Shown: positions 3,823 to 9,295 of the stretch, one piece after another
Layout: every line of letters begins with the position of its first letter
Numbering within the stretch: the first letter of the stretch is position 1
From: a bacterium
GTDB taxonomy: Bacteria > JALSQH01
NCBI GenBank assembly: GCA_026985515.1
Contig: JALSQH010000010.1
Location: 1 to 20,908, forward strand
Reading direction: 5' to 3'
Length of the DNA stretch: 20,908 bases
Notes under the pieces: model-generated
The model's input: the letters and a program-made list of their open reading frames with translations, nothing else
The model's database searches: none
Told to the model about the DNA's origin: nothing
Made by a program: the position numbers and the translations under genes

Positions 3823-4600
3823 AGATATCTCCATTCTCTCAATGATGCTTTGTTTCCTTCTGCTAATAATTCCTGTCATCATCTATTCTTACATCAAGTT
3901 ACCTCTCATAAAGGAAACCCTTCTCTCGGCAGCCCGAATGACCATTCAACTCTTCCTGATGGGGATCTATCTCAAATATCTCTTTCAGTATGACAGCGCA
4001 ATTGTAAATATTCTCTGGCTGCTCATTATGATGATTGTTGCAACCTTTCAAGCAATCAGGCGAAGTAACCTGAACCGAAAGGTTTTTCTCGTACCAATCC
4101 TTCTATCATACTCAATAAGTATCTACACCATAACACTCTACTTTAATCGCTTTGTAATAGATGTCACCAGAATATTCAGTGCAAAATATCTCGTGGTCAT
4201 AGGAGGAATGATCCTTGGAAATTCTCTGAGAGGTATCATAATCTCAGTTTCCACATTCTACAAGGATATCGCACACGAAAAGGAAAGATACATATACAGA
4301 CTTATAACCTTTGGGAACAAATTTGAAGCGGTACTTCCCTATCTCAGAAATTCCATCCAGATTGCCATAAGTCCAACCATTGCCACCATGGCAACCATGG
4401 GAATAGTTTCCATTCCGGGAACGATGACCGGCCAGATCCTTGGAGGAGCCTCACCAATGGTAGCCATAAAATACCAGATTGCCTTAATGATAGCAGTTTT
4501 CGCAGCAACAAACATCAGCATAGTTCTTTCAATCTACACCACATCCAGGAGAGCCTTTGAAAAGAGAGGCCTTTTGAGAAAGGGAATAGTTAAGATTTGA
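3809..4600 (+). CDS. fetB: ABC transporter permease, FetB/YbbM (UPF0014) family
   Basis: A 263-residue integral membrane protein with about seven predicted helices. The family core is easily read: 'MGIVSIPGTMTGQILGGASP' (MGIVSIPGMMTGQILGG-type motif), 'GMILGNSLRGI' and an 'IQIAISPTIATMATMG' stretch. It overlaps fetA by 14 bases, and GGAGG sits 6 bases before the ATG, inside the fetA 3' end, so the pair is coupled. Together they should form the membrane export complex. The stop codon lies inside the -35 box of the next operon's promoter. Confidence 0.88.
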   Translation: MGGAKDISILSMMLCFLLLIIPVIIYSYIKLPLIKETLLSAARMTIQLFLMGIYLKYLFQYDSAIVNILWLLIMMIVATFQAIRRSNLNRKVFLVPILLSYSISIYTITLYFNRFVIDVTRIFSAKYLVVIGGMILGNSLRGIIISVSTFYKDIAHEKERYIYRLITFGNKFEAVLPYLRNSIQIAISPTIATMATMGIVSIPGTMTGQILGGASPMVAIKYQIALMIAVFAATNISIVLSIYTTSRRAFEKRGLLRKGIVKI

Positions 4601-4625
4601 CAATTCATGGAGTTTTATCTATATT
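4597..4625 (+). promoter_or_regulatory. Near-consensus promoter of the cNMP/K+ channel operon
   Basis: Perfect -35 TTGACA (4597-4602), a 17-base spacer and -10 TATATT (4620-4625). The TGA within the -35 is the fetB stop codon. Transcription would begin near 4632, which excludes the TTG at 4630 and supports ATG 4654 as the start of the next gene. Confidence 0.75.
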
Positions 4626-4653: not shown

Positions 4654-6099
4654 ATGAAAGCAAGGAAACTGAAAGATAAAGGGTATGAATTTTTTCTGAA
4701 GAAGAAGTATGAAAAGGCGCTTCACTATTTCAACGAAGCTCTCAAACTTGATCCGAAGGATATTTCTCTTCATCAGAAAATCGGTGACACTCTTCTCAGG
4801 CTGGGAAGAAATGATGAGGCAGTTAGAGCTTACAAAAAAGCGGCTCAGATGTATGCCCAGAAAGGTTTTCTGATGAAGGCAATAGGAGTTTACAAACTGA
4901 TTCTGGAAATAAAACCGGAAGCAGAGGACGTCAAGGAACTTCTGGTGGAACTTTACGCAGAAAAGGGTGAGGAACCTGCCGAGACAATGGCAGTTTCATC
5001 CAGAACACTTCTTGAGAAAATCCAGCATAGGAAAGAAGAAATGGCTGAGGAAATATCACCTGCTGAAAAAGAAGAGGAAAAAATAAAAGTCAATCTTGAA
5101 GAACTTGAAATGGAAGAGGTGAAGGAGGAAGAAAAACCGGAAGAAAGTGAAGAGGAAATAGAAATTGACCTGGAAGAAGAGAAAGATGTAGATTCCTTCA
5201 TAAAAGAGCTTGGACTCGACGAAGAGGTGAATATCGAAATTGGGGAGAAGGAGGAACTGATTTCAAAACTTCCATCATACCCCATCTTTTCTCAGTGTAA
5301 CAGAGACTGTTTTTCCGACATAGTGGATTCCATCCAGTTAAAGCGATTCTCCAGGGGGGATCTCATAATCAGAGAGGGTGATACAGGCAGAAGTTTTTAC
5401 ATTATCGTGGAGGGAAGAGTATACGTTATCAAAAACACCCCTGAAGGTCCGGTAAAACTTGCAACTCTGGAAGAAGGGTCCTTCTTTGGAGAATTCGCAT
5501 TTCTCACAGGTGACAGAAGGAGTGCCTCAGTTGTGGCGGCTGAGGATGTTGCGGTGCTTGAATTCAGCGAGGACCTCCTTGAAGAATTACTGAAAAAACA
5601 TCCATCAGTAGCAGAAGTTCTGGTGGAATTTTACAAAGAGAGAATACTTGATACCATGCTGGCAATATCTCCATTTTTCAGAGTATTTGACCCCCGAGAG
5701 AGAAAGGAAATACTTAAAAATTTCAAATTCTACGAAGTGCCGGAAAACACAATTTTAATCAGAGAAGGTGAAGAGGGAGATGGATTCTACATAATCATGT
5801 TTGGAAAAGTGAGAGTTACCAGGAGAGATGAAACCGGGAAGGTGTATGAAGTGGCAACATTAGGAGCGGGGGATTTCTTTGGTGAAATTTCTCTACTCAC
5901 CCAGGGACCCACCACCGCCACGGTCACGACTCTGGAAAGAACGGGTCTTTTCAAACTCTCAGCCGCAAAGTTTCAGGAAATGATAATGACATACCCCCAG
6001 GTCCTTGAGATAACCTACCAGTACAAGGAGAAAAGAGAGGAAGAATTGAGGCAACTATTTGCCGACAGGGAATCCCTTATCCGGACGGGGATAGTGTGA
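4654..6099 (+). CDS. TPR protein with two cyclic-nucleotide-binding domains
   Basis: A 481-residue soluble protein. Residues 1-105 are two to three TPR-like helical repeats (e.g. 'GYEFFLKKKYEKALHYFNEA'), likely a docking surface. Residues 105-200 are a very acidic, Glu-rich, probably disordered linker. cNMP domain 1 spans about 205-320, with FGE at 278-280 and RRSAS at 288-292, an intact phosphate-binding cassette. cNMP domain 2 spans about 340-450, with FGE at 409-411, but the cassette Arg is replaced ('PTTATV', 419-424). There is no helix-turn-helix, so it is not a CRP-type regulator. AAGGGGAG precedes ATG 4654. It overlaps the K+ channel gene by 4 bases. I infer a sensor or scaffold for that channel; the ligand (cAMP, cGMP or other) is unknown. 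Confidence 0.85.
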   Translation: MKARKLKDKGYEFFLKKKYEKALHYFNEALKLDPKDISLHQKIGDTLLRLGRNDEAVRAYKKAAQMYAQKGFLMKAIGVYKLILEIKPEAEDVKELLVELYAEKGEEPAETMAVSSRTLLEKIQHRKEEMAEEISPAEKEEEKIKVNLEELEMEEVKEEEKPEESEEEIEIDLEEEKDVDSFIKELGLDEEVNIEIGEKEELISKLPSYPIFSQCNRDCFSDIVDSIQLKRFSRGDLIIREGDTGRSFYIIVEGRVYVIKNTPEGPVKLATLEEGSFFGEFAFLTGDRRSASVVAAEDVAVLEFSEDLLEELLKKHPSVAEVLVEFYKERILDTMLAISPFFRVFDPRERKEILKNFKFYEVPENTILIREGEEGDGFYIIMFGKVRVTRRDETGKVYEVATLGAGDFFGEISLLTQGPTTATVTTLERTGLFKLSAAKFQEMIMTYPQVLEITYQYKEKREEELRQLFADRESLIRTGIV

Positions 6100-7262
6100 A
6101 CTGGAGTGATCTGAAAAGATCAAGATTATTTCAGGCTTTTCTCATCTATGTTTTTATCTTCTTTCTCATTGCATATGCAGTACACATTGCTGAAGCTGGT
6201 GCCGGAAACCAGAACTTTTCCTCCATTTTCAGAACACTCTGGTGGGCAATTGTTACTGCAACCACGGTGGGCTATGGAGACGCTGTACCTGTAACTGCCA
6301 CGGGGAAAGCTCTATCATCCCTTTTAATGGTTGTGAGTCTCCTTTTCATGTCGGCGGTTACCGCAACTGTTGCCTCAAAGTTTGTGGAAGAAAAAATACT
6401 TGAGGAAAGGGGGTTGAAAAAATTTAAAGACTCCGGTCACATAATCATATGTGGCTGGAATGAATTTGGACTAACTCTGCTGAAATCAATTATAAGAGAG
6501 TCACTTGGGGAAAAGCCAGTATTTTACCTGATAAATGAGTTGAACCAGGAAGATATTGATGCAATAAGGTATGAAGTTCAGGGAACGGTGGTCAAATTCA
6601 TAAAGGGGAACTTTGTGAGTGAAGGCGTAATACATCGTGCAAATCCCTCAAAGGCTTCAAGAATAATTATTCTTGCAGATACCACCCACGATGGAAGCTA
6701 CAACAAGGCTGATGAAAGGACAATACTTGCGTCATTGAATTTCAAGGGCATTGCACCAGATGTCCCAATTGTGGCTGAACTTCTAAGTCCAGAGAATGAG
6801 ATATTTCTGAGGCGGGCAAAAATAGATGAAATAATAATCAGAGGGGAACTTGATAACTCCCTTCTTGGAATCGCCTCCATTTCTCCCGGAGCCGCTAAAT
6901 TGATAAAAGATATACTCAACCCGGATACCCTGAATTTTATATGGGAACTCACTCCTCCCCACCATCTCATCGGGAAAAGGATCTCTGATGTAAAAAAATG
7001 GCTTGAGGATGAGAAAAAGGGGATTCTCATAGGCATAGTAAGAGTGCAGGATACTCTCAAACTTGAAGAGATTTTCGGGGATTCTTCAAGTGTTATAGAT
7101 GAATTCATAAGGGAGCAGTTTGAAGAGGCAGAGATATTCTTCGGTGGGAAAAGATCCTATGATGTGGAACTCAATCCACCTGACGAAAGGATCCTGAATG
7201 AAAAGGAGAGGCTGGTGGTCATCAATTCGAGAAAACCTGTTGAAGAAGAGGTTTCCGTATGA
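6096..7262 (+). CDS. Two-helix K+ channel with RCK (TrkA-N) domain, MthK-like
   Basis: A 388-residue protein. TM1 is about residues 11-31, the pore helix about 43-55, the selectivity filter TVGYGD 57-62 and TM2 about 70-92. A cytoplasmic RCK Rossmann domain starts at 'HIIICGWNEFG' (115-125), very like the equivalent strand of MthK. A TrkA-C-like lobe occupies about residues 290-380. RCK domains gate such channels in response to ions or nucleotides in an octameric ring. The GTG start at 6096 shares GTGA with the upstream stop, and the stop overlaps the next gene by 4 bases (ATGA), so the pore is translated between two cNMP-domain proteins. A second, RCK-only product from TTG 6414 is possible (see findings). 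Confidence 0.92.
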   Translation: MNWSDLKRSRLFQAFLIYVFIFFLIAYAVHIAEAGAGNQNFSSIFRTLWWAIVTATTVGYGDAVPVTATGKALSSLLMVVSLLFMSAVTATVASKFVEEKILEERGLKKFKDSGHIIICGWNEFGLTLLKSIIRESLGEKPVFYLINELNQEDIDAIRYEVQGTVVKFIKGNFVSEGVIHRANPSKASRIIILADTTHDGSYNKADERTILASLNFKGIAPDVPIVAELLSPENEIFLRRAKIDEIIIRGELDNSLLGIASISPGAAKLIKDILNPDTLNFIWELTPPHHLIGKRISDVKKWLEDEKKGILIGIVRVQDTLKLEEIFGDSSSVIDEFIREQFEEAEIFFGGKRSYDVELNPPDERILNEKERLVVINSRKPVEEEVSV

Positions 7263-7759
7263 ATGGAGAAAAGATCCTTCTCTTCAGGGATCTTCAGCCT
7301 GATCAAATTGACAGAATAATGAATCTCGCCAGAGAAGAAAAGGTTCCTGCAGGGGAGATAATCATTCAGGAAGGGGAAAAGGGAAACGCTCTTTACATTC
7401 TCAAAGAAGGTACAGTGGACATTCTGAAATCCATTGTGCTTAAAGTTGGAGAGGGAATCACCCAGAATAAAGTCAAAAGGCTTGCAAGATTGAGGGCAGA
7501 AGACGGGGTTTTCTTCGGAGAAATGGCTTTTATCGGGGAAGAGGAGAGAAGCGCCACTGTCAAAGCAGTTACTGATTGTACTCTACTGGCAATAGAAAGA
7601 AGAGATTTTGAAAAAGTTGCCTCTCAGGACTGCAAACTTGCCTACACCATAATGGTAAACATTGCAAAGATACTCAGCCATCGTCTCAAACAGGCCAATG
7701 AAGACATCGCCAAGCTCACAACTGCCCTCAGCATAGCTATTTCCAGCAGAATAAAATGA
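7259..7759 (+). CDS. Stand-alone cyclic-nucleotide-binding domain protein
   Basis: A 166-residue protein that is essentially one cNMP domain: beta-roll 'AGEIIIQEGEKGNALYILKEG' (31-51), cassette FGE (86-88) and ERSAT (96-100) with the phosphate-binding Arg97 kept. A C-terminal helix runs from about 120 to 160. An insert of about 10 residues (about 58-75) between strands is longer than in the upstream paralogous domains. There is no DNA-binding domain. It overlaps the K+ channel stop by 4 bases (ATGA). The likely role is a regulatory subunit of the channel or a partner of the TPR protein, inferred from context only. Its last 177 bases are antisense to the 3' end of comEC. Confidence 0.85.
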   Translation: MNGEKILLFRDLQPDQIDRIMNLAREEKVPAGEIIIQEGEKGNALYILKEGTVDILKSIVLKVGEGITQNKVKRLARLRAEDGVFFGEMAFIGEEERSATVKAVTDCTLLAIERRDFEKVASQDCKLAYTIMVNIAKILSHRLKQANEDIAKLTTALSIAISSRIK

Positions 7760-9295
7760 GAGACATCTGATACCCTGCTTCAAAATAATTCTGCCTTTAT
7801 CCACACTGAACATGGAAGGGTAGTAACGCCACTTTCTCAGAATATAATTTCTCCATTTCTCACCAGACACATGCATTCTGAGATTCAGATCAAGCTGATA
7901 CTCATCCTCTACAAGAATGGGAGTGGGATTCCGCTCCAGCATATAAATCGCTCCGGCAAACTGAACGATCCCAAACAGCAACACAACTACGGCAAACCTG
8001 CCCCTCAGTCTGAAAAGTGCAATGGAAATTAAAGAGAGCATTGCTATCAGTCCATTCAGAGGCACTTGGAGAAAGTAATCGGGTAACCTTGATTTAAATA
8101 ACTCAAGTAAGGAAAAGGTTTTCCGGATCATAAAATCATTTACTTTCAGGAAGCCTGGATACCTGAGGGCAATTATCTGTCCTGCCACAAGAGATGGAAA
8201 AAGAATAACTCCAAATAACGGGACAAAGAGAAGATTCGCAAAGGGTGAAAAAAGAGGCAGGTAACCTGAAAGGTAAGAAGTGACAGGTATCATGGATCCA
8301 GAAATCATAAGAGGAAAAATGTACTTCATCTTTATGAATCTATTCCCAAGCCCCATCATAGCAAGAATGGTTCCATAAGCTAAAAAGGAGAGCAGAAAGG
8401 AGAGTGAGAATAATTCTCCAGGATCAAAAATCAGTATCATTAAAGCGACTAACTGAAATAGATGAATTGGATTGACTTTTCTCCTTATCCATACTGACAC
8501 CACATAGAATGCAAAAATGAGCAGTGCCCTTGCAGCAGAAATCTGCACACCGGAGAGAAAATAATATCCCGTTGTGCCTGCAAGGGAAAGGATAAGGGAA
8601 AGAGGTATCACAATTCCCCTTTCAAGGAGTTGTGGTATTTCCCTGAGTATAATCCTGAAAAGAAGATAAAGAATTCCTCCCACAAAACCAATATGGAGAC
8701 CAGAGATGGCAAGAATGTGGCTCAACCCAAGGTATTCAAAGAGGGTTTTCACTTTTCGCGGAAGTCCGCGTCTGTCACCATATATCACACCATTTACAAA
8801 AGCAGCCGACGAAATGCTCATGTAAGCCTCATTTCTAACCTTCCACCAGTTTACCGGGTTATCATTGTCACTCAGCGAATACAATTCCCTCACCGAAATT
8901 ACACACTCGTAAAAATACCCTTTCCATATACCTTTTTTGCTCACCACTGTGCCGGTTACAAATATTTTCCCCTCAAGGGGAGAGGCACCTTTTAAAAGAT
9001 AAAAAATATCGCCATTTTTTATAATGGCACTGTTTTCTCCTCTCTCCACCACTTTTCCATATATCTCTTTCTCGCACGGGATGTAATTACTGGTATGGAA
9101 TGAAGAAGTCAGGAGTACAATCATCAAAAAGAGAAAGAATAGCAGTAACCCTCTTCTTCTAAGCTTTAAAAAACCTGAGATATAAAGAAGCAGGATGAGA
9201 ACAGCAAGGGAAGGTGAAAATTGGCGAGTATAACCCTCAAGCCATGCGAGAAAATAGTGGTAACCTGTCAGAGCAAAAAGAAGTGTCTGCAGCAC
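7583..9295 (-). CDS. comEC: ComEC/Rec2-family DNA-uptake channel, short form
   Basis: A 570-residue polytopic protein. Two or three N-terminal helices (to about residue 65) precede a small beta-rich region (about 75-140, OB/DUF4131-like). The Competence domain (about 160-440) carries 'HILAISGLHIG' (193-203) and many helices. ComEC carries incoming single-stranded DNA across the inner membrane in transformation. The usual C-terminal metallo-beta-lactamase-like domain of full-length (about 750-residue) ComEC is absent: after the last helix only about 110 residues remain, of which 513-570 are antisense to the cNMP gene. The start is GTG 9295, since an in-frame stop lies 3 codons upstream; no Shine-Dalgarno is visible. 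No other competence gene is nearby, so uptake function is uncertain. Confidence 0.82.
   Translation of the reverse strand: MLQTLLFALTGYHYFLAWLEGYTRQFSPSLAVLILLLYISGFLKLRRRGLLLFFLFLMIVLLTSSFHTSNYIPCEKEIYGKVVERGENSAIIKNGDIFYLLKGASPLEGKIFVTGTVVSKKGIWKGYFYECVISVRELYSLSDNDNPVNWWKVRNEAYMSISSAAFVNGVIYGDRRGLPRKVKTLFEYLGLSHILAISGLHIGFVGGILYLLFRIILREIPQLLERGIVIPLSLILSLAGTTGYYFLSGVQISAARALLIFAFYVVSVWIRRKVNPIHLFQLVALMILIFDPGELFSLSFLLSFLAYGTILAMMGLGNRFIKMKYIFPLMISGSMIPVTSYLSGYLPLFSPFANLLFVPLFGVILFPSLVAGQIIALRYPGFLKVNDFMIRKTFSLLELFKSRLPDYFLQVPLNGLIAMLSLISIALFRLRGRFAVVVLLFGIVQFAGAIYMLERNPTPILVEDEYQLDLNLRMHVSGEKWRNYILRKWRYYPSMFSVDKGRIILKQGIRCLSFYSAGNSYAEGSCELGDVFIGLFETMAEYLCNVYHYGVGKFAVLRGNFFKISSFYCQ

Follow-up and report, generated by a model that had tools for sequence, protein, structure and literature searches.

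A candidate two-component K+ channel in which an MthK-like RCK ring is joined by a separately encoded cyclic-nucleotide-binding subunit

Introduction

To our knowledge, the sensor of a cyclic-nucleotide channel is part of the pore protein, and in RCK channels it is the RCK itself that detects ions or nucleotides. The window, which is the whole 20,908-nucleotide stretch of bacterial DNA analysed here, contains a K+ channel gene placed between two genes for proteins with cyclic-nucleotide-binding domains (CNBDs). This arrangement raises the question of whether a channel pore can be governed by a nucleotide sensor encoded apart from it, and which of the neighbouring genes would belong to such a system. 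A first-pass annotation had proposed that an RCK channel is controlled here by separate sensors, with a TPR-containing protein as the adaptor.

Results

Organization of the locus

The three genes lie on the forward strand in the annotated order, and open reading frames and Pfam agree on their content: TPR and two PF00027 domains in gene 1, Ion_trans_2 and TrkA_N/RCK in gene 2, and one PF00027 in gene 3. The features are listed below.

4597..4625, + strand: sigma-70-like promoter TTGACA-17-TATATT, an 11/12 match (tentative)
4654..6099, + strand: gene 1, TPR, acidic linker and two CNBDs; ATG start with an SD-like ggggag (ORF call and Pfam)
6096..6099, + strand: 4-base overlap (GTGA) of genes 1 and 2, from the sequence
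6096..7262, + strand: gene 2, 2TM K+ channel with an RCK domain, 388 aa; GTG start (ORF call, Pfam)
6264..6281, + strand: selectivity filter TVGYGD, residues 57-62 (sequence and alignment)
6402..6416, + strand: predicted internal start, with SD GAGG at 6402-6405 and TTG at 6414-6416 (residue 107) (codon and SD statistics)
6414..7262, + strand: predicted soluble RCK product, 282 aa (internal-start signature; position next to MthK Met107)
7259..7262, + strand: 4-base overlap (ATGA) of genes 2 and 3, from the sequence; the commonest junction of the family
7259..7759, + strand: gene 3, stand-alone CNBD subunit, 166 aa; ATG start, C-terminal helix with a DIxKLTTALS motif
7514..7555, + strand: phosphate-binding cassette FGE...RSA of gene 3 (F86-A99); G87, E88, R97 and A99 invariant

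Both junctions show the 4-base overlaps already annotated, and Pfam detects no DNA-binding domain in the gene 1 or gene 3 product, again as described. The claim of one strong promoter fared less well: the upstream match stands, but its strength is only plausible, since the region holds 13 promoter-like sites against 11.3 ± 3.3 expected, which is chance level. On the opposite strand, a ComEC-like ORF (PF03772, window 7583-9295) shares 177 nt with the 3' end of gene 3 in antisense.

The channel and the single-CNBD gene form the conserved core

Across genomes, the conserved core is the pair formed by the 2TM-RCK K+ channel (6096-7262) and the stand-alone single-CNBD protein (7259-7759). With the channel protein as the only query, a genome-contig scan gave no relatives; the same query against 192 genomes recovered full-length homologues at about 24-35% identity. 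At 17 loci (L002-L016, L018, L020) a single-CNBD ORF of 160-200 aa lies directly 3' of the channel on the same strand. When three CNBDs from paired loci served as queries against named genomes, a channel lay directly 5' of the CNBD at each family locus that had sufficient sequence, with the exception of L035, where the CNBD is preceded by 925 bp without a channel; this count leaves out L034, L056, L057 and L063, near a contig end, and L076, outside the family. The records recovered in this way include MAGs of KSB1, Calditrichota, Neomarinimicrobiota, Ignavibacteria, Bacteroidota, Chlorobiales and Fibrobacteres.

In a profile search of 386 genomes, each of the 28 loci fetched with scores above 300 bits carries the CNBD gene, and the weaker L125 (278 bits) and L126 (271 bits) are channel matches without one. 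In the two genome searches taken together, the CNBD gene accompanies each close channel homologue with visible downstream DNA; L021 (387 bits) is left out of judgement as its ORF extends past the fetched stretch. The CNBD match of L023 (256 bits) ends downstream of its channel. The profile was seeded with paired members, but pairing was no criterion in either the initial search with the channel or the search with CNBDs.

Altogether there are 83 pair loci, 62 of them distinct at 95%, spread over many phyla. No more than 30 nt separates the two genes in 58 of these 62 pairs, and 19 share the -4 overlap (ATGA); the 315-nt gaps of L033 and L038 contained no conserved ORF on inspection. The pairing of the channel with the single CNBD is far beyond chance. 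No natural fusion of the two was found among the loci examined, the 386-genome profile search included, and no published account of the pair was found among the open-licence papers searched.

Several further features were seen around the pairs. A gene for a HEAT-like protein (about 610 aa) lies 3' of the pair on the same strand at 14 loci (e.g. L060:1794-3620), and a valyl-tRNA-synthetase-like gene lies within about 3 kb 3' in 17 of 57 paired loci. At L115:970-2661 (G282), the channel ORF places two pore units in tandem (TVGYRD then TVGYGD) before a single RCK, and the CNBD gene comes next.

Gene 1 is an accessory of this locus

Gene 1 has homologues in 14 other genomes of 145, none of them beside a channel at the loci examined, and at no other channel locus with upstream sequence does such a gene precede the channel. 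The genome G049 holds a homologue at 41% and no channel match; in G041, a CHASE2 cyclase lies between two homologues on a contig different from that of the channel. The second CNBD of the gene 1 product has lost the pocket arginine (PTTATV). The trio was considered as a conserved unit and ruled out, and the three-part layout that had been put forward as the unit dissolves into the pair and a local neighbour. Gene 1 is thus accessory, outside the conserved core and dispensable in other organisms. Its product may be an additional local cNMP-binding protein that shares the signal or acts as an adaptor. That all three proteins assemble into one complex, with the TPR protein as the adaptor, is unlikely: the 4-base overlap with gene 2 and the shared operon would fit such an assembly, but the TPR gene precedes the channel at no other locus examined and its homologues occur apart from channels.

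On contig C73 of G041 (L079, L093), the cluster reads TPR-2CNBD, CHASE2 adenylate/guanylate cyclase, TPR-2CNBD and GAF-HD-GYP.

The channel has an MthK-type layout with altered RCK ligand sites

The channel protein possesses two TM helices around a pore loop, not six, with Ion_trans_2 spanning residues 16-97. The TVGYGD pore followed by an RCK is the layout of MthK, which is also the closest match in sequence and fold. The Ca2+ ligands of MthK, which we take to be D184, E210 and E212, are only partly retained in the RCK alignment: D184 is kept in 48 of 54 sequences, the E210 column is His in 34 of 54, and the E212 column is hydrophobic. Two of the three ligands (E210, E212) are consequently not conserved in the family, and the window's channel reads D, E and L at the three columns. 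The glycine-rich GxGxxG nucleotide motif is absent from the RCK, and a CGWN motif occurs instead. Such losses in the RCK would fit a handover of ligand sensing to the CNBD protein.

A predicted internal start within the channel gene

At the column of residue 107, TTG is used in 45 of 50 leucine codons, compared with 8.2 expected from the leucine usage of each gene; in 20,000 simulations the maximum was 19. Where the residue is not leucine, L002 has ATG and L015 has GTG. L018 and L020 form a divergent sub-clade, in which the CNBD is without the loop insertion seen in the rest of the family and an ATG stands one codon further on. An SD match of at least 4 bases precedes the site in 83% (mean over columns 9.7%), and among sequences below 55% identity TTG is kept in 21 of 29. 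These statistics point to a conserved internal start in the channel ORF and predict a soluble RCK product. The soluble RCK of MthK is made from Met107 (PMC9440719), and Kch-type proteins have been reported with a Met in the linker between TM2 and RCK (PMC2920069). If this reading is correct, MthK-style internal initiation would be a trait that a bacterial family has maintained.

The CNBD protein retains an intact pocket, and cyclases are present

The closest solved relatives of the gene 3 CNBD by sequence are those of PKG, PKA-R and MloK1 (PDB). Its four pocket residues listed above are invariant in 41 aligned sequences, and the Glu/Arg cassette is intact. The family shares a DIxKLTTA motif in the C-terminal helix and is devoid of a DNA-binding domain.

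The source genome encodes two class III cyclases, an FHA-GAF-cyclase (L031) and a CHASE2-cyclase (L032), whose metal and substrate motifs, read by eye, are of the adenylate-cyclase type; cAMP is for this reason the most likely ligand. All 28 genomes with the pair carry a class III cyclase, compared with 107 of 165 genomes lacking the pair; for the 18 pair genomes that belong to the sample, Fisher's test gives p 0.0009, uncorrected for phylogeny and genome size. No cyclase family recurs beside the channel-CNBD pair. In the window's genome, a TPR-Ser/Thr kinase ORF (L031:3-1499) is convergent with the FHA-GAF-cyclase.

Discussion

Genes 2 and 3 probably specify a K+ channel of two components, in which an MthK-like RCK ring is combined with a cyclic-nucleotide sensor acting in trans. 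Four full-length 388-aa subunits would form the K+-selective 2TM pore, and their RCK domains, together with soluble RCK initiated at the internal TTG (codon 107), would build the cytoplasmic ring as in MthK. The 166-aa CNBD protein would bind a cyclic nucleotide, cAMP most likely, or possibly cGMP, and dock on the RCK ring in a complex with the channel, so that the pore opens or closes as the nucleotide level changes. The proposal of an RCK channel under a separate cNMP sensor is retained in its main part, strongly favoured by the pairing, the intact pocket, the lost RCK ligand sites and the co-occurring cyclases; the TPR protein drops out of it as a component. With somewhat less confidence, we favour the view that the pairs constitute a widespread and undescribed class of cyclic-nucleotide-regulated K+ channels, in which a free CNBD subunit acts on the RCK gating ring and two genes give three products: the pore subunit, an internally initiated soluble RCK and the CNBD protein.

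The CNBD protein might instead have no part in gating and serve the RCK ring as a chaperone, assembly or stability factor, with the cyclic nucleotide controlling assembly or turnover. Obligate pairing and short overlaps fit this equally well, and AF2 models of in-frame read-through fusions of L062 reach domain pLDDT of 91-92 with a pTM of only 0.71 (full) and 0.70 (RCK+CNBD), too low to fix the relative placement of the CNBD. The fully conserved ligand pocket and the lost RCK ligand sites point rather to ligand control of activity, which makes such a role quite improbable. A different ligand for the CNBD (cCMP, cUMP or none) is very improbable, as is a role of the pair as a Pycsar-like antiphage effector: PADLOC matches gene 3 to the CNBDs of Pycsar TIR effectors, but the match covers the CNBD only, the channel has none, and a recurrent adjacent cyclase family is missing. 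An ordinary Ca2+-gated channel of the MthK type beside an unrelated CNBD gene is equally improbable, for although MthK is the closest solved structure, two of its three Ca2+ ligands are not conserved and the CNBD is an almost invariant neighbour.

If confirmed, a sensor acting in trans would connect K+ flux with cAMP signalling in phyla where both are poorly known, among them Calditrichota, KSB1, Ignavibacteria and Neomarinimicrobiota. The channel and its separate CNBD would also provide a separable system for how a CNBD drives an RCK ring.

Compared with known systems, the pair most resembles MthK (PDB 1lnq/6u68; 2TM-RCK, Ca2+-gated), with which it shares the TVGYGD-bearing 2TM pore, the RCK ring and the position of the predicted internal start between TM2 and RCK; it differs in the unconserved E210 and E212, the TTG start and the separate CNBD gene on the 3' side. 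With MloK1 and SthK (6TM, fused CNBD) it has in common a K+-selective pore and a CNBD with an intact Glu/Arg cassette, but here the pore is 2TM, an RCK is present and the CNBD is a separate ORF at every locus. GsuK, a dual-RCK K+ channel gated by ADP/NAD+ (PMC3510474), has the same 2TM-RCK layout, whereas the present channel has a single RCK, no glycine-rich nucleotide motif and a separate CNBD. The regulatory CNBDs of PKA and PKG are the closest PDB matches of gene 3 by sequence, yet no kinase is involved here and the CNBD is single. Pycsar differs in that the pair has no recurrent neighbouring cyclase and its channel no PADLOC counterpart. In KtrAB and TrkAH, a K+ transport protein is under a separate cytoplasmic protein. 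KefC is likewise regulated by the separate KefF (PMC2920069). The pair shares with these systems the principle of a separate cytoplasmic regulator; they are transporters, however, with an oxidoreductase or an RCK protein as the separate part, where the pair described here has a CNBD.
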